Assembly (NCBI GenBank): GCA_003219195.1 | Contig: QHPX01000085.1 | Location: 1 to 42,006, forward strand | Origin: Verrucomicrobiota bacterium | Lineage (GTDB): Bacteria; Verrucomicrobiota; Verrucomicrobiia; Chthoniobacterales; UBA10450 | DNA: 42,006 bases | Direction: 5' to 3' | Part shown: one piece after another, positions 1,044 through 41,756 of the stretch | Numbering within the stretch: position 1 is the stretch's first letter | Layout: every line of letters starts with the position of its first letter | The notes under the pieces: model-generated | The model's database searches: none | What the model was told of the DNA's origin: nothing | The model's input: only the letters and a program-made list of their open reading frames with translations | Made by a program: the position numbers and the translations under genes

Positions 1044-1139
1044 GCCGCTCGCGTGATGACTTAGTCGCGATCTCACTCGTTGTCGATCTTGCAAAAATCT
1101 CTTGCGGAATTTTTGGACCCGACACAAGCTCGCAGCGCA

Positions 1140-1463
1140 ATGAGCACGTTAGCGCGTTCAACAAATCGCGGGCGCGCGTCTATTGCGATTTTCGTCTCCG
1201 CGGCATTTCTCTGGGCGCTCGCGCTGGGTGCTTCCCCGCAATTGCACGAGCGCGTCCACAAGGACGCGAATCGCAGCGAGCACACCTGCGCAGCGACGAT
1301 GGTCGCCTCTGGCGGTTACGATTATTCTGCTCATCCGCCACTGGTCGGCGCTCCGGTTCCCGGCGTGCAATTTTCGAAAATTCCGGCATTGACTCCGCAG
1401 TGGGTCGAATCGCCGTTTCTCGGCGCATGCATCTTCGAGCACGCGCCGCCTGCGCGCGGTTAG
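1140..1463 (+). CDS. Small exported or anchored His/Cys protein A, upstream of TonB receptor
   Basis: A 107-residue protein from the ATG at 1140; an in-frame TTG at 1080 would add 20 residues. A single hydrophobic segment (about residues 16-34) suggests a signal peptide or anchor. It is followed by LHERVH, then EHTCA and ASGG, and ends with WVESPFLGACIFEHAPPA. A second protein at 3880-4206 shares this layout over its whole length, including LHER-H, H/C-A, ASG, SPFLGA-IFEHAPPA. The conserved His and Cys residues suggest metal binding; this is inference. It lies 159 bp upstream of a TonB-dependent receptor. The setting recalls small DUF2946-type proteins found beside metal receptors in proteobacteria, but I do not claim that family. 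Function unknown. Confidence 0.65.
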   Translation: MSTLARSTNRGRASIAIFVSAAFLWALALGASPQLHERVHKDANRSEHTCAATMVASGGYDYSAHPPLVGAPVPGVQFSKIPALTPQWVESPFLGACIFEHAPPARG

Positions 1464-1621
1464 CACGCAGCTGAGCCGCGTTCTCGCGGAGCGCTAGAAG
1501 TCCCACTTCGCCTGAATCGCGGCACGGCCTTCGTGCAAGATGCGCTGCTTTCACCTGGCTTCACGGGAATCGTGGGCCGCAACTTTCACAACTTTGAAAA
1601 ATCCATTTCGAAAACACATCA

Positions 1622-3745
1622 ATGAAAAAATTTCTAAGTGCATCACTTGCACTGTTTCTCGTGCGAAATATTGCAACTGCGCAAGACGCATTACCGAGCC
1701 CCGCACCACCACCGACGGCAACGCCGGGTACCGCCACCGCTGAAAACGTAGTTGTCACCGCGCAGGAGCTCGACATTTCGCGCGAGCAAATTGTGCCCAG
1801 TCTCGGCGCGACGCGTTACACGGTCGGACCCGATCGGCTTGATTCGCAGGCGCAGGGCGAGAACGCTCAGTTCAATCAAACCATCTTGCGCTTTCCCGGA
1901 GTAGCGCAGGATTCATTCGGGCAGCTTCACGTCCGCGGCGAACACGCCAATCTGCAATACCGCATCGACGACGTGCTCCTGCCGGAAAGCATTCCCGGCT
2001 TTGGGCCGGAACTGGCGACGCGCTTTGCCGATAATATCTCGCTCATCACAGGCGCGCTCCCGGCCCAGTTTGGCTTTCGCGAAACCGGTGTCATCGACAT
2101 TCACACAAAGAACGGCCCGGTCTTCACTGGCAACGAAGCGTCCATCTACGTGGGCAGTTTCGACACAATTATGGAAAGCCTCGAGCGCGGCGGCGTGACT
2201 GGAAAGCTCAGCTATTACGTCACGCAAAGTTATTTGCACGACGGCATCGGCATCGAAAATCCAACGCGCAGCAGCAGCCCGATTCACGACGACACGGATC
2301 AATTCAAAGAATTCGGTTATTTCTCTTACATCATCGACAACACCAGCCGACTCTCGCTGCTCGTTGGCGACGATCACAATGATTTTCAAATCCCCAACAA
2401 TCCGGGGCAACCGCCGATGTTTACAGTCGATGGAAGATCGACATTTAACTCGGCCAAGCTGGACGAGAACCAATCGGAAGACAACGCCTACGAAATTTTA
2501 ACTTACCAAAAAAATGCGGGCGATCTCAATTTCCAAGCGTCAGTCTTCAATCGCTTCAGTTCGATCCTTTTTCGCCCGGACGACGTCGGCGACCTCATTT
2601 TTAACGGCGTTGCCTCGCGGGTGGATCGCGACATTCTTTCCAACGGCGTCGAACTCGATTCGAGCTACAAACTCAACGACCAGCATACGATTCGCGGCGG
2701 TCTTATTTTCACCGAGCAGCACGCGACCATCGATACGGCTACGCTTGTTTTTCCGGTCGATGCCAATGGCAACCAAACCAGCACCACCCCGCTGCGCATC
2801 GTCGATAATCACGACAAGTACGGCTACTTCTACGGTTTCTATTTGCAGGACGAGTGGAAGCCTTTCGAACAACTCACGATCAATTTCGGCGGCCGGCTCG
2901 ACTTTGTAAATGCGTTCGCGGACGAGAACCAGCTCAGCCCACGAATTAATGTCGTTTACAAGCCCTTTGACTGGACCACGCTTCATGCCGGTTACGCGCG
3001 CTACTTCACGCCGCCGCCCTTAGAGGCTGTTCCACAAAGTACCATCGCCAAATTCGCTGGCACCACGAACGGCTCCGCGATCACACTGGATTCCGCGGTG
3101 ACCTCGGAGCGCGCGCATTACTTCGATGCCGGCGTAACGCAAAAGATTATGGAAGGATGGAATGCGGGACTGGACGGTTTCTACAAGAGCTCGCATTCGA
3201 CACTCGACGAAGGCCAGTTTGGCCAGGCGCTCATTCTCTCATCGTTCAATTACAATCGCGGCCGGATTTACGGCGGTGAATTCACCACGAACTACGACCA
3301 TGGTCCGTTCTCGGCCTATGGAAATGTGGGTTGGGAATGGGCGCGCGGCGTCCACGTGAGCTCTGCGGAGTTTTTGTTTGATCCAGATGAGTTTGCCTTC
3401 ATCAACAAACACTGGGTGTTTCTCGATCACGACCAGCGATGGACCGCCACAGCCGGCGCTGCCTACACTTGGAACGACTGGAAAGCGGCGGCTGATTTTC
3501 TCTACGGAGCTGGGCTTCGGAGAGGCTTCGCCAACACCAAAAGCGTGCCCGATTACGCAACCGTTAATTTGTCTCTTCAGCGGAATTTGAAGATTCCCCG
3601 AGTCGGCAATTTTAAGGTCCGCTTCGACGTCGTGAACTTGTTCGATAAGATTTACGAGCTGCGCGACGGCAGCGGCATCGGTGTGGGCGCGCCGCAATTT
3701 GGCCAGCGTCGCGGTTTCTACGGCACGGTCGCTTACGATTTCTGA
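1622..3745 (+). CDS. TonB-dependent outer-membrane receptor, probably for metal or metallophore
   Basis: A 707-residue protein with a signal peptide (MKKFLSASLALFLV... cleaved near the AQDA region), a proline-rich linker and a plug domain at about residues 40-170. The plug shows VVVTAQELD (possible TonB box region), the RFPGVAQDSFGQLHVRGEH segment and a RIDDVLLPE loop typical of plugs. The rest is barrel-like with alternating aromatic strands and ends in VAYDF, a terminal Phe usual for Bam-assembled barrels. It would import a ligand too large or rare for porins, using ExbBD-TonB energy. Its neighbours, a ZnuA-like protein, permease, CDF and ZIP, point to zinc or a related divalent metal; this is inferred from context. 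Length is normal for the family. No iron-box or Zur-box was recognised upstream. Confidence 0.88.
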   Translation: MKKFLSASLALFLVRNIATAQDALPSPAPPPTATPGTATAENVVVTAQELDISREQIVPSLGATRYTVGPDRLDSQAQGENAQFNQTILRFPGVAQDSFGQLHVRGEHANLQYRIDDVLLPESIPGFGPELATRFADNISLITGALPAQFGFRETGVIDIHTKNGPVFTGNEASIYVGSFDTIMESLERGGVTGKLSYYVTQSYLHDGIGIENPTRSSSPIHDDTDQFKEFGYFSYIIDNTSRLSLLVGDDHNDFQIPNNPGQPPMFTVDGRSTFNSAKLDENQSEDNAYEILTYQKNAGDLNFQASVFNRFSSILFRPDDVGDLIFNGVASRVDRDILSNGVELDSSYKLNDQHTIRGGLIFTEQHATIDTATLVFPVDANGNQTSTTPLRIVDNHDKYGYFYGFYLQDEWKPFEQLTINFGGRLDFVNAFADENQLSPRINVVYKPFDWTTLHAGYARYFTPPPLEAVPQSTIAKFAGTTNGSAITLDSAVTSERAHYFDAGVTQKIMEGWNAGLDGFYKSSHSTLDEGQFGQALILSSFNYNRGRIYGGEFTTNYDHGPFSAYGNVGWEWARGVHVSSAEFLFDPDEFAFINKHWVFLDHDQRWTATAGAAYTWNDWKAAADFLYGAGLRRGFANTKSVPDYATVNLSLQRNLKIPRVGNFKVRFDVVNLFDKIYELRDGSGIGVGAPQFGQRRGFYGTVAYDF

Positions 3746-3879
3746 CGAGTTCGAACTAATCATGAGTCGGTGTGGGAGGAAACCCAGGCGTCCGGGGCAA
3801 TGCTGCACGGCAGCGCCCGCAGCGGCGCGGTATAGAAAGTCCTTGCGCAACAAATCGCTCGAAAGCAAAGTCGCGCTCG

Positions 3880-4342: not shown

Positions 4343-5965
4343 ATGAGAAAATTTATTTTGGTAACGCTGGCGATTTTTTCGGTAGCGGCCGCTTCTGCGC
4401 AGGGAGCGGCGTCCGTTTCCACGTCGTCGCCCGGGCCGGCAGTTTCAAAGTCAATGCCAGCCTCGGCGGCGGATGTCGAAGCGCTGCGCCAGCAAGTGCA
4501 ATCGCTCAGCGAGACGGTGAAGACGTTGCAGCAGCAAGTGAAAGATCAGCAGGCCGCGCTGGAAAAGGCGAGCCTCGGGGGTGAATTGGCCTCGCAGCAA
4601 AATCCGGAGCCTTCCCCCATTGCCGGAGCGGCTGGTTCGCCCGCACCCGCTGCGAGCGCACCGCGACGTTTTCCAATCGAAGACACCTCAGTTGTTTCAT
4701 CGACAACTGCGCCGGCCGTAAGCGGCACCCCCGCGCCGGGAAGTTTTCCGACCACGGACACCTCGGTCGTAACATCGACACCGGAAACGATCTCAAGTAG
4801 TGGGGCTGGCGGATCGCTGACGGCGCCGATCGCCATCGGTGGCGGAAAAAATTACATGAACATCTCCTTCGACGGACTGTTCGCCTTGGCTTACTCCAGC
4901 GCGCGCGATCTTAATCATGTCGAAGTCGGCGATCACGATCCGCAGCAGCGCGGGTTCAATGCGCGCAACATCGAGCTCGCCTTTGACGGAGCGGTCGACC
5001 CTTACTTCGAAGGTTTCGCCAACATTGTCTTCAAATTGGACAACGACAACGAAACCGAGGTCGAAGTCGAAGAAGCTTTCCTGCAAACGACCAGCTTGCC
5101 CTTTAACTTGCAACTCAAAGCTGGACAATTCTTCGCCGCCTTCGGTCGTTTAAATCCGACTCATCCGCATACGTGGGACTTCGCCGACGCGCCGCTCGTC
5201 AGCGGTCGCATCCTTGGCCCGGACGGATTGCGCGGCGTCGGCGCGCAAATCTCGTGGATCGTGCCGGTGCCGTGGTATTCGCAGGTAATTTTTGCCGTGC
5301 AAAATGGCCGCGGCGGCACCGGTTACTCATTTCGCAATCCCGGCGATGATGGAATTTTCTTTGGCCGGACGACAACGGATCGGGAAGCGCGCGGTTTGCA
5401 GGATTTCGTCTGGATCCCGCGCTGGGAAAATTCTGTCGATCTTAGCCCGACGCAGGTCGTGCTCGCAGGTGTATCCGGGGCCTTCGGTTCAAATGAGACT
5501 GGCGCAAATGCCCGCACGCAGATTTACGGCGGCGATCTTCTTTACAAATGGAAAAGCTCGCACGCGGAAGGCGGCTTTCCGTTTGTGAAATGGCAAACCG
5601 AGGCGATGTATCGCCGGTTCGAAGCCGGCCGCGGCGTCGATGAATCGTTTCCCGTCGCGGAAACGTTCCATGATTGGGGGATGTATTCGCAATTGCTTTG
5701 GGGGTTCAAGAAAGGATGGGTCGCGGGCGTGCGCGGCGATTACCTGCACATGACCGACTCCGAATTCACCGACGATATGGACCGGCAAACGCGCTCGCGC
5801 GTCAGCGCCAACTTGACCTGGTATCCGACCGAGTTCTCCAAAATACGATTGCAATACAATCACGATTTCTTCGACGAAAATTTCTTCCTCGCCGATCGGG
5901 ATGTCGATTCGGTGTTCCTCCAATTCGAATTCATCCTCGGTGCGCACGGCGCCCACAAATTCTGA
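4343..5965 (+). CDS. Outer-membrane beta-barrel (porin-like) with N-terminal coiled coil
   Basis: A 540-residue protein with a signal peptide (cleavage near AAASAQ), a coiled-coil stretch at about residues 44-75 (heptads of the VEALRQQVQSLSETVKTL type), and a Ser/Pro/Thr-rich linker to about residue 165. A barrel domain follows, starting ISFDGLFALAYSS with features such as FEGFANIVFKLDND and LKAGQFFAAFGRLNP. It ends in GAHKF with terminal Phe. The coiled coil plus barrel layout is seen in porins held to the wall or trimerised. The ATG is preceded by AGGAG. The ZnuA-like gene starts 3 bases after its stop, so the two are surely co-transcribed and this barrel likely delivers the same metal. Similar barrels are sometimes labelled zinc-regulated TonB-dependent receptors, but no plug domain is visible. 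Confidence 0.8.
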   Translation: MRKFILVTLAIFSVAAASAQGAASVSTSSPGPAVSKSMPASAADVEALRQQVQSLSETVKTLQQQVKDQQAALEKASLGGELASQQNPEPSPIAGAAGSPAPAASAPRRFPIEDTSVVSSTTAPAVSGTPAPGSFPTTDTSVVTSTPETISSSGAGGSLTAPIAIGGGKNYMNISFDGLFALAYSSARDLNHVEVGDHDPQQRGFNARNIELAFDGAVDPYFEGFANIVFKLDNDNETEVEVEEAFLQTTSLPFNLQLKAGQFFAAFGRLNPTHPHTWDFADAPLVSGRILGPDGLRGVGAQISWIVPVPWYSQVIFAVQNGRGGTGYSFRNPGDDGIFFGRTTTDREARGLQDFVWIPRWENSVDLSPTQVVLAGVSGAFGSNETGANARTQIYGGDLLYKWKSSHAEGGFPFVKWQTEAMYRRFEAGRGVDESFPVAETFHDWGMYSQLLWGFKKGWVAGVRGDYLHMTDSEFTDDMDRQTRSRVSANLTWYPTEFSKIRLQYNHDFFDENFFLADRDVDSVFLQFEFILGAHGAHKF

Positions 5966-5968: not shown

Positions 5969-6868
5969 ATGAAAAAGATCCTGTTAATTCTGTGCACAAT
6001 TCTGGCATGCGCTGTCTCTGCGAATGCAAAACTTAACGTCGTTGCGACGCTGCCCGATTTCGGATCGCTCGCGCGCGAGATCGGCGGCGACAAGATCGAC
6101 ATCGTCACCCTGGCAAAACCGACGGAAGACCCGCACTTTGTCGATGCACGTCCCAGCTTCGTCGTCTCATTGCGCAGCACCGACGTTTTGATCGACGGTG
6201 GCGCCGAGCTTGAGATCGGCTGGTTGCCGCCGCTCTTGCAAAACGCGCGCAACCCGAAAATCGAGATCGGCAAGCCGGGCCGCGTTCAGGCGTCGCAAGG
6301 AATTCGTCTCATGAACGTGCCGACAAATGTGACGCGCGCGGCGGGCGACGTGCACGCGCTTGGCAACCCGCATTTCATGAGCGACCCGATCATCGCCAAA
6401 GCCGTGGCGCAGCACATCGCACAATCCTTTTCCGCGGTCGATTCCGCCAACGCGGCTGTCTACGACGCGAACTACAAAAAGTTCGAAGCGGCGATTAACG
6501 CAAAATTACAGGAATGGGGCGCGGCGATGCTGCCGTTCAAAGGACAGAATGTGGTCGCATATCACGATTCATGGGTTTATTTCGCGCACCGTTTTGGCGT
6601 GAACATCGACATCTTTCTCGAACCAAAGCCGGGCATTCCGCCGTCGCCGTCGCATTTGACGGAAGTGATCGCGCAGATGAAAGCGCGGCACATCAAAGCG
6701 ATCATTGTCGAGCCGTTTCACGATCGGCGAATCGCCGAGAAAGTCGCGAACGCGACTGGCGCGAAGGTCGTGGAGTTTTCGCAGTTTCCGGGCGGCCTGC
6801 CCGGGACGGACAGTTACGTGAAGTTGATCGACACCCTCGTCTCGCGGCTGGCGGCGGCGCTGAAATGA
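5969..6868 (+). CDS. znuA: Metal ABC transporter substrate-binding protein, ZnuA-like
   Basis: A 299-residue periplasmic protein with signal peptide MKKILLILCTILACAVSANA. Candidate metal ligands at the positions usual for cluster A-I binding proteins are His56 (EDPHF), His135 (GNPHF) and His199 (AYHDSW). Three His ligands favour zinc over manganese, where Glu/Asp replace the later ones. The His-rich loop of many ZnuA proteins is absent; the short GDVHALGNPH stretch is all that remains. The protein should hand metal to the permease at 6968. It is three bases from the porin gene. A decamer copy (6092) encodes DKIDI. The symbol is given by family; metal identity is inference. Confidence 0.85.
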   Translation: MKKILLILCTILACAVSANAKLNVVATLPDFGSLAREIGGDKIDIVTLAKPTEDPHFVDARPSFVVSLRSTDVLIDGGAELEIGWLPPLLQNARNPKIEIGKPGRVQASQGIRLMNVPTNVTRAAGDVHALGNPHFMSDPIIAKAVAQHIAQSFSAVDSANAAVYDANYKKFEAAINAKLQEWGAAMLPFKGQNVVAYHDSWVYFAHRFGVNIDIFLEPKPGIPPSPSHLTEVIAQMKARHIKAIIVEPFHDRRIAEKVANATGAKVVEFSQFPGGLPGTDSYVKLIDTLVSRLAAALK

Positions 6869-7853: not shown

Positions 7854-8807
7854 ATGTCCCCCGTGGATCATTCTCACTTCCGGCACTCGCACGATTTCGT
7901 CCGCGATTTTTCCAGGGGCGAACGTCGCACGCGCTTCGTAATTGTGATCACTGGCGTAATGATGGTGGTGGAGATCACGGCTGGTCTTCTCTCCCACTCG
8001 ATGGCGTTGCTGGCCGACGGCTGGCACATGAGCACGCACGTCAGCGCGTTTCTCATCACCGCGATTGCCTATTACTTCACGCGGCGGCACGCGTCGAATG
8101 TCCAGTTCAGTTTCGGCACTGGAAAAATCGGCGTTCTCGGCGGGTTCGCGAGTGCGGTCGTGCTATCGGTGGTTGCATTTCTCATGGCCGGCGAATCGGT
8201 TCACCGTCTTTTCGTTCCGCTGTCCATTCATTTTAACGAAGCAATCGCTATCGCGTGCATCGCCCTTACCGTCAATCTTGTCTGCGCGTTGCTGTTGAAA
8301 GAGGACGATCATTCACATCCTCGCGGCCAAGATCGACATCGTCATTCACACGACCATGACCTGAACCTGCGCGCCGCATATCTCCACGTGCTGGCCGACG
8401 TGTTCACGACATTTCTTGCCATCATCGCGCTAACTTCGGGCAAGTTCTTCGGCTGGTTCTGGCTCGATCCCGTTGTCGGCTTGGTCGGAAGCGGCGTTGT
8501 TTTCTCGTGGGCTTACAGCCTTTTGCGCGATACGAGCGGCATTTTGCTCGATCGCACGCCGATCTCTTCCGATTTGCCGGAGGAAATTCGCCGCGCGGTC
8601 GAGGCTGACGGTGACTCGATCGTGACCGATCTCCATGTCTGGCAGATGGGCACGGGGAAATTTGCCGCCATCGTCTCGATCGTCGCGCACGAGCCGAAAA
8701 CTTCCGACGCATATCGCGAATTGTTGCGCGAGCACGAAGAGCTGGTCCACCTCACCATCGAGACGCAGCACTGTCGGGAAGATCACGAATCACTCACGAG
8801 CTCTTGA
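7854..8807 (+). CDS. Cation diffusion facilitator, DmeF/CzcD-like metal exporter
   Basis: A 317-residue protein from the ATG at 7854; an upstream in-frame ATG at 7779 overlaps znuB and would add 25 residues. The N-terminus is His-rich (DHSHFRHSHDF). The CDF metal site is visible as ALLADGWHMSTH in TM2 and AYLHVLADVFTT in TM5, both HxxxD. A His-rich loop (HSHPRGQDRHRHSHDHD) lies between, then two more TMs and a C-terminal cytoplasmic domain with LHVWQMGTGK. ADGWHMSTH is typical of the DmeF branch (Co/Ni/Zn export). The protein would export metal from the cytoplasm by proton exchange. It sits next to uptake genes, and its stop overlaps the ZIP start. Decamer copy at 8329. Confidence 0.9.
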   Translation: MSPVDHSHFRHSHDFVRDFSRGERRTRFVIVITGVMMVVEITAGLLSHSMALLADGWHMSTHVSAFLITAIAYYFTRRHASNVQFSFGTGKIGVLGGFASAVVLSVVAFLMAGESVHRLFVPLSIHFNEAIAIACIALTVNLVCALLLKEDDHSHPRGQDRHRHSHDHDLNLRAAYLHVLADVFTTFLAIIALTSGKFFGWFWLDPVVGLVGSGVVFSWAYSLLRDTSGILLDRTPISSDLPEEIRRAVEADGDSIVTDLHVWQMGTGKFAAIVSIVAHEPKTSDAYRELLREHEELVHLTIETQHCREDHESLTSS

Positions 8808-9588: not shown

Positions 9589-10926
9589 GTGCATTCGTTT
9601 CATTACCGCGAAGGGAAGCTTCATTGCGAAGATGTCGATCTTGCGTGGATCGTGCAGGAATTTGGGACGCCGCTCTACGTCTACAGCGCGGGAACGATTC
9701 TCGATCATTACCGCAGACTCGATGCCGCGTTCGCCGCGGGACGAATCCGCCCGTCCGGCGGACTCGCGCCGCTGGATCATCTGATTTGTTATGCGGTCAA
9801 AGCGAATTCGAATCGCGCAATCCTGAGTTTGTTTGCCAAAGAAGGAGCTGGGTTCGACATCGTTTCCGGCGGCGAACTTTTCCGCGTCGTTGCCGCAGGA
9901 GGCGATCCCGCGAAATGCACCTTTGCCGGCGTCGGAAAGTCGCGCGAGGAAATCGAGTACGCGCTCGAACAACGCGTTTACAGTTTCAACGTCGAGAGCG
10001 AAGTGGAGCTGGATTACATCGACCAGATTGCCGCGAGCAAAGGCGCGCGCGCCCCAGTCGCGTTGCGCGTGAATCCCGATGTCGATGTGGCGACGCACGA
10101 GTATATCTCCACCGGCAAAAGCGAAAACAAGTTCGGGATCGCGCTCGATCACGCGGCCGCGGTTTATGAGCGCGCCGCGAAAATGCGCAACATCGACATC
10201 GTCGGCGTGCAAATGCACATCGGCTCGCAGATCATCGAGACGCGGCCGTTCGTGGACGCGATCAAGAAGGTCACGCCATTGGTTCGCGAATTAAAAAGTA
10301 AATACGGGATCAAGTTTTTTAGCGTTGGCGGAGGAGTCGGGATTGTTTACGAATCGTCGTTCGTGAGCGGCAGCAGCGGCTGGTGGAAGGAAGAAGCGCC
10401 CGCGCGACATCAATTGTCCATCCAACAATATGTCGATGCGATTCTGACGCCGCTGCGCGAAGTGAAATTAAGAATTCTGCTCGAGCCTGGGCGATTGCTG
10501 GTCGGGAACGCCGGTGTTTTGCTCACGCACGTCCGTTACCTCAAGCAAACCGGCCAGAAAAAATTCGCAATTGTCGATGCCGGAATGAACGACCTGATTC
10601 GCCCGGCGCTTTACCATAGTTATCACGAGATCGTTCCGCTGCGTGAATCGCAGCGAGGTGGCGAGCGCGACAAGATCGACATCGTCGGTCCGGTGTGCGA
10701 GACGGGCGATTTTTTCGCGCGTGATCGCGAGATGCCGGAGCTGCGCGAAGGCGATCTGCTCGCCATCATGAGCGCGGGCGCTTACGGATTTGTCATGGCG
10801 TCAAATTACAATTCGCGCCCTCTGCCGGGCGAAGCTTTGGTGCGCGGCGATAAATTCGCGCTCATTCGAAAACGACAAACGAACGAAGATTTGGTCCGCG
10901 ACGAGTTAGCACCGACATGGTTGTAG
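9589..10926 (+). CDS. lysA: Diaminopimelate decarboxylase
   Basis: Converts meso-diaminopimelate to lysine with PLP. The 445-residue reading uses a GTG at 9589, 17 bases after the ZIP stop; the frame is open further up inside the ZIP gene, so the start is uncertain by a few codons. Seen motifs are CYAVKANSN with the PLP lysine near residue 71, the QMHIGSQI segment, a glycine-rich FSVGGGVG phosphate loop, EPGR, and CETGDFFARDR carrying the active-site Cys. Length is normal. Decamer copies lie at 9633 (DVDLA) and 10672 (DKIDI). The stop codon TAG is part of a palindromic repeat (10920-10989), so the last residues come from that element. No other lysine gene is nearby. Confidence 0.92.
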   Translation: MHSFHYREGKLHCEDVDLAWIVQEFGTPLYVYSAGTILDHYRRLDAAFAAGRIRPSGGLAPLDHLICYAVKANSNRAILSLFAKEGAGFDIVSGGELFRVVAAGGDPAKCTFAGVGKSREEIEYALEQRVYSFNVESEVELDYIDQIAASKGARAPVALRVNPDVDVATHEYISTGKSENKFGIALDHAAAVYERAAKMRNIDIVGVQMHIGSQIIETRPFVDAIKKVTPLVRELKSKYGIKFFSVGGGVGIVYESSFVSGSSGWWKEEAPARHQLSIQQYVDAILTPLREVKLRILLEPGRLLVGNAGVLLTHVRYLKQTGQKKFAIVDAGMNDLIRPALYHSYHEIVPLRESQRGGERDKIDIVGPVCETGDFFARDREMPELREGDLLAIMSAGAYGFVMASNYNSRPLPGEALVRGDKFALIRKRQTNEDLVRDELAPTWL

Positions 10927-11715: not shown

Positions 11716-12678
11716 ATGAGATTTGACCAACTGCACGCGCTCTATCACCTACCGCTTTTCGATTTGATTTCGCAAAGCCGGGCGGTGCATCTCCAATATT
11801 GGCGCGGTGAAGATGTGCAGCGTTGCAGTTTGCTCAGCATCAAGACCGGCGGCTGCAGCGAAGATTGCGCCTATTGCGCGCAGTCTGCGCATTATTCCAC
11901 CGGCCTCGAACGCGAAGAGTTATTGTCGATCGAAAAAATTACAGCCACAGCGCGACGAGCACGAGCGCAGGGTGCGACGCGTTTCTGCATGGGCGCGGCC
12001 TGGCGCGGCGTGCGGGATGGGACGGAAAAGTTCGAGCGCGTGCTCGAGATCGTGCGAGAAGTGAGCCAGCTCGGCATGGAAGTTTGTGTCACACTCGGCG
12101 AGATCGGTCCGGTGGAAGCGCGCAAACTCAAGGCTGCCGGCGTAACGGCTTACAATCACAACATCGACACCTCGCCCGAATTTTATCCCGAGATTGTAAG
12201 CACGCATTCGTTCGAAGATCGCCTGAACACGATCGCCGCCGTGCAGGAAAGCGGCATGTCGGTTTGCTGCGGTGGAATCATCGGCATGGGCGAATCGGAA
12301 AACGATCGGCTGCGCATGATTGAGATTTTGAGCGAACTCGATCCACCGCCGCAAAGCGTGCCGATCAATTGTTTGATGGCGATGCCGGGCACGCCGCTGG
12401 CCGATCAACCGCCGGTCGATGTTTTTGAGCTAGTCCGCCTCATTGCCGTCGCGCGCGTCGCGTTGCCGAAGGCGCGTGTGCGCCTCGCCGCCGGGCGCAC
12501 CAGAATTTCGCAGGAAGGCCAGGCGCTCTGTTTTTTTTCCGGCGCGAACTCGATTTTTTTCGGCGACAAACTTCTCACCGCAAAGAATCCGGCGGCAGAT
12601 GTCGATCTTGCGTTGTTGCGCGAACTGGGATTGGAAATTGAAGAGGGTGTAGAGGCGGCTGTCCCCAGCCGCAGCTAA
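11716..12678 (+). CDS. bioB: Biotin synthase (radical SAM)
   Basis: Inserts sulfur into dethiobiotin, the last biotin step. The 320-residue protein from the ATG at 11716 has the radical-SAM cluster motif GGCSEDCAYCAQS (Cys47, Cys51, Cys54). It also has the second-cluster and SAM-site segments TRFCMGAAWRG, MEVCVTLGE, YNHNIDTS, and INCLMAMPGTPL, RLAAGRT with the Arg ligand of the 2Fe-2S cluster. Length is normal. An upstream in-frame ATG at 11686 lies in the low-complexity run and is less likely. The last ten or so residues (EGVEAAVPSRS) and the stop come from a palindromic repeat. No other biotin gene is close. Decamer copy at 12600 (DVDLA). Confidence 0.95.
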   Translation: MRFDQLHALYHLPLFDLISQSRAVHLQYWRGEDVQRCSLLSIKTGGCSEDCAYCAQSAHYSTGLEREELLSIEKITATARRARAQGATRFCMGAAWRGVRDGTEKFERVLEIVREVSQLGMEVCVTLGEIGPVEARKLKAAGVTAYNHNIDTSPEFYPEIVSTHSFEDRLNTIAAVQESGMSVCCGGIIGMGESENDRLRMIEILSELDPPPQSVPINCLMAMPGTPLADQPPVDVFELVRLIAVARVALPKARVRLAAGRTRISQEGQALCFFSGANSIFFGDKLLTAKNPAADVDLALLRELGLEIEEGVEAAVPSRS

Positions 12679-16011: not shown

Positions 16012-17022
16012 TCACAAACTTTCAACAATTTCCCGGATGAGATTCGGTCCGCGATAAATGTAGCCCGTGTAAACCTGAAGAAGGTGTGCGCCGGCCTCGA
16101 ATTTTTCGCGGGCGGATTGCGCATCGACAATTCCGCCTGACGCGATCACCGGGATTGTCGATCTCGCTGCGATCGCGCGCACCAGGGTGGTTGATTTTTC
16201 GCGCAACGGCGCGCCGCTCAACCCGCCAGGTTGATCATACGTCGGCGGAATCGACGAGTGATCGAGGGTTGTGTTGGTCGCGATGATCCCTGCGGTTTCA
16301 TTTTCTTCGCAGGTGGCAATCACCTCGTTCAATTCGTCAGAGGAAAGATCGGGTGAGATTTTTATCAGCACCGGTTTACGTGCGATTTGGTTTTTTTCGC
16401 GAACCGCACGAAGCAATTGCGCCAGTGCCTCGCGTCCCTGCAACTCGCGCAAACCCGGCGTGTTGGGCGAGCTCACATTTAACACAATGTAATCGGCAAA
16501 TTCCCGAAGCAGCCGGAAAGAGTAGAGGTAATCGTCCGTCGTCTGCTCCAACGGTGTCTCCCTTGACTTGCCGATGTTGATGCCGAGGGGAACATCGGGC
16601 CAGCGCTTGCCGCTACGCAATTTGCGCAGCCGTTCGGCGATCGCGACCGCACCGTCGTTGTTAAATCCAAGGCGATTGATCAAGGCTTCTTGTTCGGCAA
16701 ACCGAAAGATGCGCGGCTTTGGATTGCCCGGCTGCGCTTTTGCGGTCACGGTGCCGATCTCGATGAAACCGAAGCCAAGCGCCGCCCATGCCGGCAAAGC
16801 CACGCCGTTTTTGTCCAAGCCCGCGGCCAGTCCGATTGGATTCCGAAAGGTCAGCCCGAAAACTGTTTTCGGCTTCGGCGCGACCTGAAAAGACTGGAGC
16901 GCGCGCAACGCAAGATCGACATGGGAGGCGCCGCGCAGCAGCGCGATGGCCAGATGATGCGCCGCTTCGGCGTCGAGAGAAAAGAGCAATGGCCTAACCA
17001 GTCGCTCGTAGGCACTTCTCAT
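16012..17022 (-). CDS. pyrD: Dihydroorotate dehydrogenase, quinone type (class 2)
   Basis: Oxidises dihydroorotate to orotate in pyrimidine synthesis, passing electrons through FMN to the quinone pool. The 336-residue protein starts at the ATG at 17022, which overlaps the mnmE stop (ATGA). The N-terminal helices (MRSAYERLVRPLLFSLDAE) are the membrane-associated part of class 2. Motifs are GLAAGLDKNG, IGTVTAKAQPGNPKPR, NRLGFNN, LNVSSPNTPGLRELQ with the catalytic Ser of class 2, VKISPDLS-like strand, ASGGI and QVYTGYIYRGP. Length is as expected. Decamer copy at 16912 (HVDLA). Confidence 0.95.
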   Translation of the reverse strand: MRSAYERLVRPLLFSLDAEAAHHLAIALLRGASHVDLALRALQSFQVAPKPKTVFGLTFRNPIGLAAGLDKNGVALPAWAALGFGFIEIGTVTAKAQPGNPKPRIFRFAEQEALINRLGFNNDGAVAIAERLRKLRSGKRWPDVPLGINIGKSRETPLEQTTDDYLYSFRLLREFADYIVLNVSSPNTPGLRELQGREALAQLLRAVREKNQIARKPVLIKISPDLSSDELNEVIATCEENETAGIIATNTTLDHSSIPPTYDQPGGLSGAPLREKSTTLVRAIAARSTIPVIASGGIVDAQSAREKFEAGAHLLQVYTGYIYRGPNLIREIVESL

Positions 17023-21094: not shown

Positions 21095-21607
21095 ATGAAG
21101 CGGCCGGCCGCGGAGATCGACATCGTCCGTGGAGACATTACCAAACTTGATGTCGATGCAATTGTGAACGCGGCCAATAGCACACTGCTCGGCGGCGGCG
21201 GAGTCGATGGTGCAATTCATCGCGCAAGCGGGCCGAAACTGCTCGCTGAATGCAGAACACTCGGCGGTTGCGCGCCCGGCGAAGCAAAAATCACCCACGG
21301 TTATAATCTGCCCGCGCGTTACGTCATTCACACGGTGGGTCCGGTTTGGACGGGCGGGAGCCGCGGCGAGGCAGAAACATTAGCGAATTGTTATCGCAAC
21401 TCGCTCCGGGTCGCGGTTGAAAACAAAATCAAGACGATCGCATTTCCAGCGATCAGTTGTGGCGCGTATCGCTATCCGGTGGAAAAGGCGGCGCAAATTG
21501 CGCTCGAAACTACTCGCGACTTCCTCACAACCGGGGACAAGATCGACAAAGTCATCTTCGTGATTGCCAGCGAAGATATCCATACCGTTTATCGGCGGCT
21601 TCTGTAG
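21095..21607 (+). CDS. Macro domain protein, O-acetyl-ADP-ribose deacetylase (YmdB-like)
   Basis: A 170-residue stand-alone macro domain from the ATG at 21095. Motifs are [52 protein letters not shown] and [14 protein letters not shown], all typical of the MacroD/YmdB branch. These remove acetyl from O-acetyl-ADP-ribose and mono-ADP-ribose from proteins. It is in one transcript with pdxH. Decamer copy at 21539 (DKIDK), and a one-mismatch copy at 21113. Confidence 0.92.
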
Positions 21608-22755: not shown

Positions 22756-22820
22756 AATCGGACACTGATAACTCCGCGATTGAACGCGGCATTATCCTCG
22801 CGGAAGATGTCGATCTTCGC

Positions 22821-24831: not shown

Positions 24832-26523
24832 CTATAATTTTCCCGGCCCCCAAAGCGCGCGGCCCGGTTTGGCGCCAGTGTGCTCGCCGTCTTTGATTAC
24901 TTGCACGCCATTTACAAAAACCTGCTTCACGCCGATGGCGTACTGGTGCGGTTTTTCGAACGTCGCACGGTCCGCGATTGTTGCCGGGTCGAACATGACT
25001 ACATCGGCGAACATTCCTTCCTTGATGAAACCGCGGTGATCGAGCCCGAGGTTCGTGGCGGGCAAACCGCTTAAGCGGCGCACCGCTTCCGAAAGCGAAA
25101 TCACTTTTTCATCTCGGGCATATTTGCCGAGCACGCGCGCAAAACTGCCATACGCGCGCGGATGCGGATTCGATTTCAGGAAAACGCCTTCCGGCGCTTG
25201 TGACGCTTCATCGGAACAAAAAGAAATCCAAGGCTTGGCCATCTCCTTTTTTACGTTCTCTTCTGACATCAAAAGGTAAATCGTGCCGATGCGCGACTCG
25301 TCTTCCGCGATCAAATCCATAATGGTGGTGATTGGATCTTTGCCACGCATCTTCGCGACTTCGGTGAGCGATTTGCCGGTGAGCGGTTTCAGTTTGTCTG
25401 ATTTGAATCCGACCAGCAAAATGTTGTTGGGCGAACCGGCGCCGATATAAAGATTTTCCCATTGGTCGCTATCCTTGCCAACTTCGGCGGCAATTTTTTC
25501 TCGGGTCGCCGGGTCGCGCAACCGTTTGAACAACGCCGGGTAACCGCCGTCTTCAGTCCAGGGCGGCAAACAGGCATCGAGCCCAGTCCCGGCTGCGGTG
25601 TAAGTGTACATGTTGGCGCGGATATTGAGCCCCTCTTTTTGCGCCGCTTCGATCCGCGAAAGGAGGTTGTCGATCTTGCCCCAGTTTTGTCGTCCGGCGG
25701 CTTTGATGTGGTAAACCTCGGCCGGAATTTTTGCTTCCCGGCTGATCCGGACCAGCTCGTCGAACGCTTCCAGCAATCGATTTCCCTCGCTGCGCATGTG
25801 CGAGATGTATTTGCCTTTGTATTTCGCTGCCACTTTGCAGAGCTCGATCAACTCATCCGTCTTTGCGTAAAACGCCGGCGGATAAATCAACGCCGTGCCG
25901 ATCCCGAGCGCGCCTGCTTCCATTTCCTTGCGCACCAGCTCTCGCATCTCGTCGAGTTGCTGCGGCGTCGGCGCTTTGTCGTCGAAGCCGATCACATTTT
26001 CGCGTATCGTGGCCGCGCCGATGAAGGAGGCAACGTTACAGGAGACGCCGCGATTCTCGAGATAACGCAGATATTCGGCCAACGTGTTCCATTTAATCTC
26101 GTATTTGATGTCGGTTTGCTGACGTAGCATGTGTTCGCGGACGCGGTCGTTCACCGGGCCCATCGATTCGCCTTCACCCATGATCTCGGTCGTGACGCCT
26201 TGCCGGATCTCGCTCTGGGACCGGCCGTCCTGGATGAGCGACTCGTTCGACCACGAAAGCATGTTGATGAACCCGGGCGCGACCGCGAGCTCGGCCGCAT
26301 CGACAATCATTTTGGCCTTCGCCGTTTTGAAATCGCCGATGCCGGCAATGCGATCATTGCGAATGGCAAGATCGACATGTTGCGGTTCGCCACCGGCCCC
26401 GTCGTAAACCGTACCTCCTTTGATCAGCACGTCGAACTGCGCAGGACTTGAAGGCGGAGGCGAATTCTGCGCGAGAACGCAGATCGCAATCGTCGAAGCA
26501 AAAATAACGGCAATGCGCTTCAC
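24832..26523 (-). CDS. D-aminoacylase / N-acyl-D-amino-acid deacylase-like amidohydrolase
   Basis: A 563-residue exported protein (signal peptide MKRIAVIFASTIAICVLAQ). The amidohydrolase frame is clear: DVLIKGGTVYDGAGGE, VDAAELAVAPGFINMLSW, GVTTEIMGEGES, ISHMRSEGNRLLEAFDE, VYHIKAAGRQNWGK, WISFCSDEA and FADVVMFDP. It should hydrolyse N-acyl-D-amino acids or related amides in the periplasm. Two metal-site elements differ from known D-aminoacylases: the usual HxH after PGFID is replaced by NMLSW, and the Cys of the NCG segment is replaced by Glu (EGES). The two later His (SHMRSEG, YHIKAAG) are kept. Such variants are known as a subset; activity is uncertain. Decamer copies at 25668 and 26368, and one 30 bases upstream of the start. 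Confidence 0.8.
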   Translation of the reverse strand: MKRIAVIFASTIAICVLAQNSPPPSSPAQFDVLIKGGTVYDGAGGEPQHVDLAIRNDRIAGIGDFKTAKAKMIVDAAELAVAPGFINMLSWSNESLIQDGRSQSEIRQGVTTEIMGEGESMGPVNDRVREHMLRQQTDIKYEIKWNTLAEYLRYLENRGVSCNVASFIGAATIRENVIGFDDKAPTPQQLDEMRELVRKEMEAGALGIGTALIYPPAFYAKTDELIELCKVAAKYKGKYISHMRSEGNRLLEAFDELVRISREAKIPAEVYHIKAAGRQNWGKIDNLLSRIEAAQKEGLNIRANMYTYTAAGTGLDACLPPWTEDGGYPALFKRLRDPATREKIAAEVGKDSDQWENLYIGAGSPNNILLVGFKSDKLKPLTGKSLTEVAKMRGKDPITTIMDLIAEDESRIGTIYLLMSEENVKKEMAKPWISFCSDEASQAPEGVFLKSNPHPRAYGSFARVLGKYARDEKVISLSEAVRRLSGLPATNLGLDHRGFIKEGMFADVVMFDPATIADRATFEKPHQYAIGVKQVFVNGVQVIKDGEHTGAKPGRALWGPGKL

Positions 26524-26581
26524 GAGCGCGATTCAAAGAAGCCAAATTGCCAATGTCGATCTTAAAACGCTGCGAGCGAGG

Positions 26582-28700: not shown

Positions 28701-28765
28701 CGATGTGATATTATCAAGCATTACGAAGTTCGCATGTCGATCTTGGCATGTTATAGCTGTGCGGC

Positions 28766-29425
28766 GTGACTGAGCCGACTGGTAAGATCGACAAGCCCGA
28801 GCCACGGTGGCAGGCCCTTCTGGCATTGCTCGCGGTAGGCGGGATTTATTTGGCGTTGCCGCGGACGTTAATTGTCGGTCCGACCTGGCTGTTGCCAGCC
28901 GTGATCGTGATTCTGGTTACGCCAACCATTGTCGCCCATCGCATGGGGAAGCATTCGTTAAATCACGCGCTCGGCATCATCATCAGCAGCGTGATTACGC
29001 TGGCACTGATTGCGTCGGTCGTTTTGCTCGTCGTGGCCGTGCCGGCGCGCAAGGAAGCACCGGTCGCGCTTTTGTGTTCCGGCGCCGAGCTTTGGCTAAC
29101 GAACGTGTTGGTCTTCGCGCTTTGGTACTGGCGGCTGGATGGCGGCGGGCCCACGCTCCGGCATCAACGGCGGGAATTCGGCAGCCGCAGTTTTGTTTTT
29201 CCGCAAATGCAGATTGAGAAGATAGAGCGCGGTCGCTTCGGCATCGACGGATGGCGCCCGCGCTTTGTCGATTACCTCTTCGTCGCGTTTACGCAGAGTT
29301 CCACGTTCGGTCCGACCGATGCGCCGCTGCTCGGGCGCTGGTCCAAATGTTTAACGATGATGCAAATCGCCATGTCACTGACCATCGTTATCGTCCTGAT
29401 CTCGCGCGCTGTCGGCGTGCTCTGA
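28766..29425 (+). CDS. Integral membrane protein of unknown function
   Basis: A 219-residue protein from a GTG at 28766. It has about five hydrophobic segments: residues 18-36, 40-58, 68-92, 105-120 and 190-215. The C-terminal part FVDYLFVAFTQSSTFGPTD, then PLLGRWSKCLTMMQIAMSL is well-formed and recalls widespread uncharacterised membrane proteins with a YL..AFT....F..TD signature (DUF1345-like), which I cannot confirm. A decamer copy (28784) sits just after the start and encodes GKIDK. No partner genes suggest a role. Confidence 0.7.
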   Translation: MTEPTGKIDKPEPRWQALLALLAVGGIYLALPRTLIVGPTWLLPAVIVILVTPTIVAHRMGKHSLNHALGIIISSVITLALIASVVLLVVAVPARKEAPVALLCSGAELWLTNVLVFALWYWRLDGGGPTLRHQRREFGSRSFVFPQMQIEKIERGRFGIDGWRPRFVDYLFVAFTQSSTFGPTDAPLLGRWSKCLTMMQIAMSLTIVIVLISRAVGVL

Positions 29426-30622: not shown

Positions 30623-32311
30623 ATGATCTGTCGTCTCGCATTTCTGATGGTTGTTTTCGCCGGCCAGGTTGGTCATGCGCAGCAGGCGGCCGGCGACAGC
30701 AGCGCGCTCAATTTCAAACAATTCGGTCTGCTCGCCATTCAAGATAACGGAAGACGCAAACCGATCGACACCTTCGCCAAAGAAACGCTGATCCGAATCA
30801 CGGGAAGATCGACATATACCAGCGGCGCCAGGAAATGGTCGCCGAATGATTTCGTTTTGTCGGCATTACTTGAAACGCATGACTGGAAAACCGAGCCGAT
30901 GGTTCTGGTTTCGTTTGGCGAATTGAAGGAGAAGCTGGGCCTGGATAAAACCCAACGACGATTTTCCTTCGCGCAATTGATCGCGCTGCCGGAGTTGAAC
31001 CGGCTGGCGAACGAGGCGCACGAATTGCGCAGAGCGGAAAAGCCATTGGACCGGTTGCAGCAGGAAGTGATGAGCGTGAGCGAGCGGCTCGCGCTTTTCG
31101 CGCACGTGATGGACGGAAGCGCGTTCCTTATCCTCCCTACGGCGAAGGACGAAACGGACGCTTGGGTGGTGCCGACGGAATCTTCCCGGTATTATACCGA
31201 CGCGCAATTCGCGCCCATCCAGATCCAGTTGCAAACGGTGGCCACCGCCTATTTTCAGGGCGATGAATTCAATTTCAGCCGCGCCTCGAACCAGCTCCGG
31301 GAAAATTTGCGCGCTCTCAGTCCGTCAATTTATCCGCAAGATCGACAATTGCGCCTCGAATATTTCTACAATCATTTTGACGGCTTTTATCGTGCCATTT
31401 GGTCTTATGGCCTGGCATTTCTTATTTTGCTCATCGCGCATCTGCGCAAACATGGCGGCGTATTGCGCAAGGTTGGCGTAGCGATTGCCGTCCTCGGCCT
31501 CCTCTTCCACGCGAGCGGGATTGCGATGCGGTGCATGATCGCCGGCCGCCCGCCGGTCACGAACATGTATGAGTCGATCATCTGGGTCTCGTTCGCCGTC
31601 TCGTTTTTCGGGATGATTTTCTTTTCTCGCTATCGCACGCCGGTCTATCTGCTCGCGGCCCTGCCGGTCACGCTCACCGCACTGTTGCTTGTGCATCAAA
31701 TGCCGATCGCGATGCCGTCGAGTATCGATCCGCTCGTGCCTGTATTGCGCGACAATTTCTGGCTGACGGTGCACGTGTTAACGATCACGTTGAGTTACGC
31801 GGCCTTTGCGCTCGCGATGGGTTTCGGGCATATCTTGCTTTTTCGCTACGCGCGCAATCCGAGCGGCGCGCGCGCGGATGCGCCGATGCATTTCTGGTTG
31901 TATCGCGTGTTGCAGCTCGGCGTGCTGTTGCTTGCGACAGGCACGATTCTCGGCGGCGTCTGGGCGAATTACTCCTGGGGAAGATTCTGGGGGTGGGACC
32001 CGAAGGAAACCTGGGCGCTGATCGCCTTACTTTGTTACATCCTCACTTTGCATGGCCGACTTGCTGGTTGGTGGACGCAATTCGGTCTGGTGGTGGCGAG
32101 TGTCGTCTGTTTTCTAGCGGTCTTAATGGCGTGGTACGGTGTGAACTTCGTGCTCGGAAAAGGACTTCACTCCTACGGGTTCGGCATCGGCGGCGAGACC
32201 TATGTGGCGGCCTTCGTGATTGTCGATCTTTTATTCGTCGCCTTTGCGATCTGGCGCTACCGGATGAGCAAGCGCGCGGTAATGATAGCCGGGGAGATCG
32301 TCCCCGGTTGA
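30623..32311 (+). CDS. ccsA: Cytochrome c biogenesis protein CcsA with N-terminal periplasmic domain
   Basis: A 562-residue protein from the ATG at 30623. A signal peptide (MICRLAFLMVVFAGQVGHAQ) is followed by about 240 residues of periplasmic domain (QFGLLAIQDNGRRKPIDTFA...). The heme-handling membrane part has about eight TMs and the WWD signature WGRFWGWDPKETWAL. Conserved His are in HVLTITLSYAAF and LHSYGFGIGGE. With ResB (22821) it forms the System II cytochrome c synthase. The long N-terminal domain is typical of Bacteroidetes/Verrucomicrobia/Planctomycetes forms. Decamer copies at 30805, 31338 and 32221. Confidence 0.9.
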   Translation: MICRLAFLMVVFAGQVGHAQQAAGDSSALNFKQFGLLAIQDNGRRKPIDTFAKETLIRITGRSTYTSGARKWSPNDFVLSALLETHDWKTEPMVLVSFGELKEKLGLDKTQRRFSFAQLIALPELNRLANEAHELRRAEKPLDRLQQEVMSVSERLALFAHVMDGSAFLILPTAKDETDAWVVPTESSRYYTDAQFAPIQIQLQTVATAYFQGDEFNFSRASNQLRENLRALSPSIYPQDRQLRLEYFYNHFDGFYRAIWSYGLAFLILLIAHLRKHGGVLRKVGVAIAVLGLLFHASGIAMRCMIAGRPPVTNMYESIIWVSFAVSFFGMIFFSRYRTPVYLLAALPVTLTALLLVHQMPIAMPSSIDPLVPVLRDNFWLTVHVLTITLSYAAFALAMGFGHILLFRYARNPSGARADAPMHFWLYRVLQLGVLLLATGTILGGVWANYSWGRFWGWDPKETWALIALLCYILTLHGRLAGWWTQFGLVVASVVCFLAVLMAWYGVNFVLGKGLHSYGFGIGGETYVAAFVIVDLLFVAFAIWRYRMSKRAVMIAGEIVPG

Positions 32312-33346: not shown

Positions 33347-34149
33347 TGAGCGAATTTGGGAAGTTGTGCGAAATCGTCGCGCGCTTGCGCGCACCCGGCG
33401 GTTGTCCGTGGGACCGCGAGCAAACGCATGAGTCGCTCTTGCCGGGATTGATTGAAGAAGCTTACGAAGTGGCCGGGGCGGTGCGGGCGGACGACAACGC
33501 AAATTTTCGCGAAGAATTGGGCGATCTTCTCCTTCTCATCGTGATGCACGCCGAGATCGCGTGCGAAGGCGGCCAATTTAACATCGGCAATGTTGTTCGG
33601 GACGTGACGGAGAAACTGATCCGGCGTCATCCGCATGTCTTTGGCAAAAGCGACGCACGCGACGCCGGTGCGGTTTTAAAACAGTGGGAAGCGATTAAGC
33701 GCGATGAAAAGAAGAGCGACCAACATTATCTGGCGAGTTTGCCGGACGCGCTTCCGGCATTGATGCGCGCGCAAAAAGCGCAAAGCAAAGTTGCCCGCGT
33801 TAATTTCGATTGGACCGAGCTGACTGACGTGATTGCAAAGGTTGAAGAAGAACTCGAGGAAACGAAATCGGCGATGGCGTCGCGAGATCGACAACAAATT
33901 GAGGACGAGATCGGCGATTTGCTTTTTGCGGTCGTCAATCTGGCGCGCAAATGCAAACTCGATGCGGAGAGCGCGCTGCAAGCCGCAACTGACAGATTCG
34001 TCGCGCGTTTCAATCGGCTGGAGGATGAGCTTCAGGCGCGCGGCAAACGGCTGGGAAATGTCGATCTTGCGGAGATGGACGCGATTTGGAACCGGATTAA
34101 GAAAACGCCGAACGTCCAACGCCCAACGCCCAACGCCGAATGTTTCTGA
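33346..34149 (+). CDS. mazG: Nucleoside triphosphate pyrophosphohydrolase MazG
   Basis: A 267-residue tandem MazG protein. The first domain has GGCPWDREQTHESLLPGLIE, EEAYEV and EELGDLLLLIVMHAE (the EExxE-type metal site). The second has KVEEELEETKSAM and EDEIGDLLFAVVNLARK. It hydrolyses NTPs to NMP and PPi, as house-cleaning and in stringent-response recovery. The last residues (TPNVQRPTPNAECF) come from an intergenic repeat and are not family sequence. The start overlaps the DUF2270 stop. Decamer copy at 34059 (NVDLA), near-copy at 33884. Confidence 0.93.
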   Translation: MSEFGKLCEIVARLRAPGGCPWDREQTHESLLPGLIEEAYEVAGAVRADDNANFREELGDLLLLIVMHAEIACEGGQFNIGNVVRDVTEKLIRRHPHVFGKSDARDAGAVLKQWEAIKRDEKKSDQHYLASLPDALPALMRAQKAQSKVARVNFDWTELTDVIAKVEEELEETKSAMASRDRQQIEDEIGDLLFAVVNLARKCKLDAESALQAATDRFVARFNRLEDELQARGKRLGNVDLAEMDAIWNRIKKTPNVQRPTPNAECF

Positions 34150-34167
34150 GTTCGATATTGGACGTTC
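34110..34167. repeat. Inverted repeat forming the mazG C-terminal tail
   Basis: GAACGTCCAA (34110-34119) and TTGGACGTTC (34158-34167) are a perfect 10-bp inverted pair, with CCAACGC repeats between. Its translation NVQRPTPNAE is seen at gene ends in several bacterial groups. It overlaps the last 13 codons of mazG, including its stop. Confidence 0.65.
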
Positions 34168-34224
34168 GACGTTGAGCGTTGAATGTTTGCTTCTCCTTCG
34201 CCTTTGGCGATATTCGCCATCCCG

Positions 34225-34710: not shown

Positions 34711-34722
34711 GGGATACCTCGG

Positions 34723-40318: not shown

Positions 40319-41075
40319 CGGCGCGGCGCAACGTTTTCAATAGATCTTCGAGTACCGGCCGCGGCGTGTCCCCGACGACGCAGACAACATGATCATCGAC
40401 GAGGCGTGCCGCGAATTGATAAGGGCCGGAATGTCCGCAGACAATCGGATCGCCGGATTCGAGCCGCTGTTTCATATTTGGAAAATGATCGAGCTCGCTT
40501 TTCTTGAGCACGATCAGCGACACCGGCGTCGGTCCGTTGCGCCCTAAGATGAGCGCAACCGGCACGCCTTCGACATGGCACAACCGCGCGCCGCTGGAAA
40601 CGAACGCTGGCTCGGAAGGACGGTAGGCGAAAGCCGCCGCATCCAGTTGCCCGCCGAATTGTTGCGCGATTTTGTCCGGCACCGCGCCGGTGAACTCAGG
40701 CGTGGTGAGCTGATGGACGTAAGCGCTGTGACACTCCTCGACCGCGTCCGCAAGATCGAGTTTTCTCGATTTCGCGAAGAAAACGACGCCCGCGACGATG
40801 ATGAGTGAAGCAGCCAGCGCGACCGGCCAAAGCGCTTTGACCCCGCGACTGCGGGACGGCGCGATCGTTGTCTCGACTTTTCCCCAAAGCGCGCTTGTCG
40901 GTCGACCGCTTCGTAAAAATCGGCTGAGGCGCGCGTCGAATTTTTTCTCCGCCTCAAACAGACCCGCGCACTCCGCGCACGATTCGAGATGCTGCTCGAC
41001 TTCAAAGCTGTTTCTGGCGTCCAGCTCCGAGTCGAGATAGAGCCGAACGAATTTTCTGACTTCCGCGCATTTCAT
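40311..41075 (-). CDS. Transmembrane anti-sigma factor with zinc-binding (ZAS) motif
   Basis: A 254-residue protein from the ATG at 41075, overlapping the sigma stop by four bases. The N-terminal domain has KCAEVRKFVRLYLDSELDA, then EVEQHLESCAECAGLFEAE, the H-x3-C-x2-C ZAS motif. One TM (ALWPVALAASLIIVAGVVFF) is followed by a periplasmic domain of about 140 residues with three further Cys (ECHSAY, ARLCHVEG, IVCGHSG), and VVCVVGD. These could form a redox or metal sensor. It holds the sigma factor at the membrane and should release it on an envelope signal, switching on the pump operon. Confidence 0.88.
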   Translation of the reverse strand: MKCAEVRKFVRLYLDSELDARNSFEVEQHLESCAECAGLFEAEKKFDARLSRFLRSGRPTSALWGKVETTIAPSRSRGVKALWPVALAASLIIVAGVVFFAKSRKLDLADAVEECHSAYVHQLTTPEFTGAVPDKIAQQFGGQLDAAAFAYRPSEPAFVSSGARLCHVEGVPVALILGRNGPTPVSLIVLKKSELDHFPNMKQRLESGDPIVCGHSGPYQFAARLVDDHVVCVVGDTPRPVLEDLLKTLRRADG

Positions 41076-41665
41076 AGCGATGACCTCCCGCCTTCGCCCC
41101 GCGGTCGCGGGGCTGCGGCGCGGCCCGGCCGTCGCGCGCGCAGAATCGCGTCGCGCATTTTTTGGCGGGCGCGTGAAAGATTTCCCATCACGCTGCCGAG
41201 CGGGATGCCGAGGCATTCGCTGATTTCGCGATAACGCAAATCGCCAATCGCGCGCATGAGCAGGGCGGCGCGCTCGGATTGATTCAAGTTTTGCAGGGCA
41301 GCGAGCAATTCTTCGTCAAGCGCGTCGGCCAGTGAATCCCACGACAGCGGCGCTTCGTTCGCAAAGTCGAGGCCGGCGAATTCCTCCATCTCCTCCGGTT
41401 CAACCGCGATCTCAAATTCCGCAACGCGGCCGCGCTTGCGATTGATCGCAAAAATTTCGTTCGTCAGAATCCTGAACACCCAGGCGCGGAAACTGGCGTC
41501 ATCGTGATAACGATCAAACGCTCGAAAGGCGCGTAGCACCGCATTTTGCAGCGCATCCTCGAAATCGCGCCGATCAGACACCATCCGGCGCGAATAATTC
41601 TCGAGATCGCGCTCGATCGGCTGAAGCAGGCTTAAAAATCGAACCCTTTGTTCGTCTCGATCCAT
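41072..41665 (-). CDS. ECF sigma factor of the RND operon
   Basis: A 197-residue protein: region 2 at about residues 20-85 (DFEDALQNAVLRAFRAFDRY, ASFRAWVFRILTNEIFAINR) and region 4 at about 118-175 (LQNLNQSERAALLMRAIGDL, YREISECLGIPLGSVMGNLS). The C-terminus is a basic tail (RRPGRAAAPRPRGEGG). It heads a five-gene operon (sigma, anti-sigma, RND, MFP, TolC). A decamer copy (41672-41681) ends seven bases before the start codon, in the ribosome-site region. The promoter is in 41682-41860; I could not define it. Confidence 0.92.
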   Translation of the reverse strand: MDRDEQRVRFLSLLQPIERDLENYSRRMVSDRRDFEDALQNAVLRAFRAFDRYHDDASFRAWVFRILTNEIFAINRKRGRVAEFEIAVEPEEMEEFAGLDFANEAPLSWDSLADALDEELLAALQNLNQSERAALLMRAIGDLRYREISECLGIPLGSVMGNLSRARQKMRDAILRARRPGRAAAPRPRGEGGRSSL

Positions 41666-41756
41666 CGGAGATGTCGATCTTAGCTAAGTAAAGTCGCAGC
41701 GGCCGCGTTTTATTACAAAAGAATGGTTTCGCGTTTTCGCGCCAAAGTTTGCCTGA

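Follow-up and report, generated by a model that had tools for sequence, protein, structure and literature searches.

A probable DNA uptake sequence in one family of Chthoniobacterales and an unrelated second word among its members

The window analysed here is a 42-kb stretch (42,006 nucleotides) of a draft genome (G000; 2.82 Mb in 183 contigs, 87% complete) from the Chthoniobacterales, which NCBI taxonomy places within Spartobacteria, Verrucomicrobiota. Along this stretch one decamer, AAGATCGACA (reverse complement TGTCGATCTT; hereafter motif A), recurs in znuA, lysA, bioB, pyrD, mnmE, hisC-type, resB, ccsA and mazG genes and also between genes, as the first-pass annotation had described. Reading of the plus strand gave 28 exact copies (14 of AAGATCGACA and 14 of TGTCGATCTT; Table 1), which makes motif A the 10-mer with the highest count in the window, where an order-3 Markov model predicts 0.34. 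Another 21 copies carry one mismatch. These numbers replace the earlier counts of 27 exact (14 + 13) and about ten one-mismatch copies. Of the extension to WTGTCGATCTTG proposed at that stage, the W was retained, as it follows 27 of the 28 window copies, while the terminal G is found at only ~50–60% of copies and represents a preference.

The longest motif-free stretch of the window (34149–41671, i.e., 34.1–41.7 kb) is occupied by an RND efflux operon (OEP, HlyD, AcrB-type) together with ECF sigma and zinc-finger anti-sigma-like genes. Taken alone, this gap is only mildly unusual, and the operon is possibly a later acquisition.

Table 1. Exact copies of motif A in the window, with strand and location.
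Position	Strand	Location or remark
1081..1090	-	intergenic
2434..2443	+	TonB-dependent receptor-like gene
5434..5443	-	sole window copy followed by G instead of W
6092..6101	+	ZnuA gene
8329..8338	+	cation efflux gene
9633..9642	-	lysA-type decarboxylase gene
10672..10681	+	lysA-type decarboxylase gene, same as for 9633..9642
12600..12609	-	bioB-type gene
16912..16921	+	pyrD
17853..17862	+	mnmE
18364..18373	-	mnmE
18940..18949	-	aminotransferase (hisC-type) gene
21539..21548	+	
22808..22817	-	ResB-like gene
23603..23612	-	ResB-like gene
23826..23835	+	ResB-like gene
24117..24126	+	ResB-like gene
24168..24177	+	ResB-like gene
25668..25677	-	amidohydrolase gene
26368..26377	+	amidohydrolase gene
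26554..26563	-	intergenic
28735..28744	-	intergenic
28784..28793	+	
30805..30814	+	cytochrome c assembly (ccsA-type) gene
31338..31347	+	ccsA-type gene
32221..32230	-	ccsA-type gene
34059..34068	-	mazG
41672..41681	-	intergenic

In the whole G000 genome we found 1,419 copies of motif A, divided between the strands as 693/726, and the reversed word used as a control gave 0 copies. Markov tests were performed on 395 kb of G000 and on 400 kb of a second genome, G013 (Centralia_MAG_126). In the G000 part 285 copies were present vs. 3.25 expected, an 88-fold excess that makes motif A the most extreme 10-mer there. The first-pass annotation had named genome-wide counts close to the Markov expectation as the outcome that would speak against its reading; the comparison was made and the counts are far above chance. 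The core of the word is AAGATCGACAW. At the position following the decamer, A or T occurs in 97% of 668 copies in the 400-kb stretch of G013, in 97% of copies in G000 and in 94% of 46 copies in a third carrier, G015. Weaker preferences, derived from the 668 copies of G013, widen the site to approximately SGC-AAGATCGACA-W-BKWCAWTT.

Motif A was denser between genes than within them, 1.2 times in G000 (0.86/kb in non-coding vs. 0.70/kb in coding DNA) and 2.8 times in G013 (4.10/kb vs. 1.44/kb), and its two orientations relative to genes occur in near-equal numbers. Spacing of the copies is close to random (CV 1.0–1.2). A polar chromosome-organising or recombination site was considered, as Chi, KOPS and AIMS are also short, frequent and intragenic words. 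Such words, however, are biased to one strand per replichore, whereas motif A shows no strand polarity over the 400-kb stretch of G013 (331/337, balanced in every 50-kb bin) and no link to GC skew in the same bins. Adjacent copies share a strand in 280 of 611 cases. We regard a site of this polar type as very improbable.

An arrangement of another kind was seen in G013, where 39 direct pairs of motif A lie at a distance of exactly 15 bp (26 pairs) or 16 bp (13 pairs), at an expectation of about 0.6 per distance. Inverted pairs gave no peak at 15/16 bp in the 400-kb stretch (G013:C4:1-400000), the G000 sample holds one direct 15/16-bp pair, and no tandem pairs were found in the viral contigs scanned for them. 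Neisseria DUS are known as inverted terminator-like pairs; such pairs are rare here, and G013 has the direct pairs instead.

Within genes motif A uses five of the six reading frames, the sixth (Cys-Arg-Ser) being nearly never used, and the K-I-D and V-D-L frames dominate. In G013, AAG ATC GAC accounts for 145 of the 156 Lys-Ile-Asp tripeptides, where codon use predicts 18.6; GTC GAT CTT accounts for 196 of 219 Val-Asp-Leu (5.5 predicted) and AGA TCG ACA for 40 of 57 Arg-Ser-Thr (about 0.1 predicted). The effect was absent or weak when the same codon test was applied to the non-carrier G027. The K-I-D tripeptide itself occurs 156 times in 121,488 codons of G013 vs. 9 times in 68,397 codons of G027, which is without motif A, a difference of ~10x per codon. 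This excess, together with the codon bias, indicates that in G013 motif A shapes proteins as well as codons. The dominance of two frames is what codon usage or a repeated protein domain could produce. Yet the words stand 8- to 36-fold above the codon expectation in G013, and far more for R-S-T, motif A occurs also between genes, and it is absent from a sister genus. The chance that codon usage or a domain accounts for the word is thus negligible, in agreement with the earlier statement that protein sequence is not the cause.

Carriers have 422–612 one-mismatch copies of motif A per Mb, the non-carrier G027 has 80. Relative to perfect copies, near copies increase from 0.25 in G013 through 0.73 in G000 to 2.1 in G015, which reads as a gradient from strong upkeep to decay. 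We also compared orthologous places around mnmE. One motif A site there is shared intact by 9 genomes representing at least five genera; other sites are intact in some genomes and one base off in others. These data bear on the possibility that a short mobile repeat (RIME, BIME or MITE-like) spread by transposition and left the copies behind, a reading in line with the higher density between genes and with the 15–16-bp tandem pairs of G013. Against it, conservation is limited to ~11 bp with weak preferences out to ~22 bp, a longer conserved unit is absent, and the copies, which inside essential genes occupy five frames, originate from point changes at orthologous sites. A mobile origin is therefore hardly credible.

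A search with a conserved protein of the window returned matches in soil MAGs (AV112, AV134, AV11, AV18, UBA10877, palsa_1382 and Centralia_MAG_126; Spartobacteria/Verrucomicrobia records) belonging to one family of Chthoniobacterales, here termed f1. Motif A is abundant in seven genera of this family (g1, g5, g8, g11, g12, g13 and g14), is at background in g2, g3, g6, g7, g9 and g10, and has left no more than slight remnants in g4. It is at background also in the other Chthoniobacterales families sampled. Among 289 sampled Verrucomicrobiota genomes only members of f1 stand out, the highest count outside the family being 57 copies in 6.4 Mb.

Genomes of f1 without motif A were found to over-represent another word, the 9-mer GCCTAACGA / TCGTTAGGC (motif B), which is unrelated to motif A in sequence, shares no common core with it and is scattered evenly on both strands. 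Motif B reaches 1,410–4,605 copies in g10 and 2,147 in g2, and G013 holds both words (4,653 copies of A and 1,802 of B). Every f1 member has at least 19 copies of motif B, usually 50–500, vs. 0–30 in other Chthoniobacterales families; as the genomes outside the family hold merely this number, the reversed-word control over-estimates the motif B background. Judged by this distribution, motif B has the appearance of an ancient trait of the family, traces of which persist in almost all members. For motif B the near/perfect ratio (raw, background included) is 1.35 in G013 vs. 0.55 in G027, and motif B would thus be the more eroded in G013.

In the MnmE tree the strong-B genera g10 and g2 split off first (98/92), followed by the weak-B genera, and all motif A genomes form one clade together with g4 (95/88), which is placed inside this clade on a long branch. 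The simplest history suggested by this single-gene tree is that B came first, A arose later in one clade, both were lost in g4 and both were kept in G013. We find it reasonably probable that the family swapped its self-recognition word, with an ancestral B giving way to A in one clade, one lineage losing both and one species having A in force and B eroding. Two candidates for a third word in g4 were rejected: AAAGCTGAA because it is repeated locally at a single locus, and GAGTACG/TGAGTAC because its enrichment is no more than weak and seems to reflect Glu-Tyr codons.

The presence of GATC in motif A, together with family-wide conservation of some of its sites, would fit a word that is bound or methylated inside the cell (by an orphan methyltransferase, mismatch repair or a nucleoid protein) and kept for this intracellular role and not by uptake. 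HIP1 of cyanobacteria (GCGATCGC) resembles motif A in its very high iteration and in the GATC inside it, and is linked to methyltransferases (PMC4390886). HIP1 is, however, a palindromic octamer with GATC, and motif A is not palindromic. GATC outside motif A is not enriched in carriers (ratio 1.02–1.05), and the sister motif B contains no GATC; these observations, with the lack of a palindrome, weaken a methylation or HIP1-like role. The near-random spacing likewise argues against it, and a decay gradient with a swap for an unrelated word is readily understood in a recognition dialect but fits a housekeeping site poorly. A HIP1-like role is in our opinion unlikely. The two alternatives offered by the first-pass annotation, a chromosome organiser and a methylation-linked site, thus fit worse than an uptake sequence, given the absence of strand polarity, the unenriched GATC and a sister word without GATC.

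The largest gap in the 400-kb stretch of G013, 13 kb without motif A, belongs to a mobile island at G013:C4:53.8–74.7 kb (L052, L053), which holds 3 copies in 20.9 kb vs. about 35 expected. Its genes include a tyrosine integrase, a replication-protein-like gene and ABC-3C-type defence genes. Motif B is present there in 8 copies vs. about 14 expected, as if the island had come through a B-carrying background. This is the one clear case of motif A depletion in acquired DNA.

The first-pass annotation had proposed a check for dprA, comEC and type IV pilus genes. ComEC (76 of 83) and DprA (74 of 83) were detected in most genomes of the family; the genomes in which they were missed are mostly incomplete drafts. 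PilB/PilT-type (pilus/T2SS) ATPases and secretins were present in 12 of 12 genomes tested, and prepilins, several per genome, in 6 of 6. ComEC, DprA and pilus genes occur also in bacteria without uptake sequences. Within the family, genus g4 (G018, G006, G024 and others) has ComEC and DprA with almost no A or B; the machinery is thus compatible with the word and does not require it.

Taken as a whole, the sequence evidence makes it quite probable that this one Chthoniobacterales family uses AAGATCGACAW as its DNA uptake (self-recognition) sequence. The first-pass reading, that the word serves DNA uptake or recognition in a lineage of Verrucomicrobia, is a strong inference that gains support from the density, strand symmetry, asymmetry and family restriction of the word, and it fits also the five-frame pressure, the cloud of near misses, the turnover at orthologous sites, the depleted island and the competence and pilus genes. 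Motif A has several features expected of an uptake sequence: it is a short asymmetric word whose copies number hundreds to thousands, well beyond what composition would give (1,419 vs. 0 for the control in G000), equal on the two strands, found in and between genes, restricted to a clade with competence genes, and depleted in recently acquired DNA in the single clear case. An uptake sequence would explain jointly the asymmetry, the lack of polarity, the random spacing, the DNA-level drive, the changing words of the family and the island.

Under the uptake reading, some component of the type IV pilus or pseudopilus would recognise and bind the word on free double-stranded DNA, and the marked DNA would be pulled in via the secretin and passed by ComEC and DprA to recombination. 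Because uptake and recombination would favour marked alleles, the word would accumulate by molecular drive along the whole chromosome, irrespective of strand and in genes as well as outside them. Motif B may have had the same role in the family ancestor until its replacement by A in the later-branching clade, with one genome still carrying both.

To our knowledge, the well-studied uptake sequences belong to two proteobacterial families. Pasteurellaceae USS have a short core and a weaker conserved one-sided flank, occur at about 1 per 1–2 kb and are mostly intragenic. Motif A is similar in all these respects (for USS, see PMC1626085 and PMC7811141). It differs in phylum and sequence, and its flank is weak (-3 to +21), with no clear AT-tract pair. 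Neisseriaceae DUS are asymmetric 10–12-mers that occupy about 1–2% of the genome on both strands and exist in several dialects in one family, all sharing a CTG core; Simonsiella muelleri is the one reported two-dialect genome, and its two DUS differ by one base (PMC3630211). The system described here resembles DUS in having an asymmetric short word on both strands at a comparable genome occupancy, several words in one family and a two-word genome. Unlike DUS, it belongs to another phylum and is unrelated in sequence, its two words have no common core, and CTG is absent on either strand from A (AAGATCGACA/TGTCGATCTT) and from B (GCCTAACGA/TCGTTAGGC). In kind the element would be a known one, while the word, the phylum and the proposed replacement by an unrelated word differ from Neisseriaceae DUS. 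No report of uptake sequences in Verrucomicrobia (Verrucomicrobiota) or Udaeobacter, or of the word itself, was found in the open-access (PMC) literature.

If the uptake reading is true, sequence-marked DNA exchange evolved independently in abundant, mostly uncultured soil Verrucomicrobia, and transformation would be a route of recombination for these bacteria in soil. With two unrelated words in the family, their remnants and a species that carries both, it would also become testable how a population changes a word of which each genome has thousands of copies. The word could also be of practical use in transforming these organisms and in tracking foreign DNA within their genomes.

The receptor in Neisseriaceae is ComP, whereas here there are several candidate PilA-like paralogs. 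When these were compared and the prepilins of six genomes listed, none was found to track A or B. In some genomes a gene for a PilA-like prepilin is placed next to sucA or between the two 2-oxoglutarate dehydrogenase genes, sucB and sucA (L104:7544-8011, L155:2841-3239, L228:915-1329); its product in G015 is basic (pI 9.4). This pilin, intact only in G013, G015 and G018 and truncated in G012, was rejected as the receptor because it occurs across A, B and no-motif genomes alike. A distinct 151-aa prepilin is encoded at L103:7833-8288 in G013, which has both words, and at L109:6470-6925 in G027, a motif B genome, and in these two only among the six genomes scanned.
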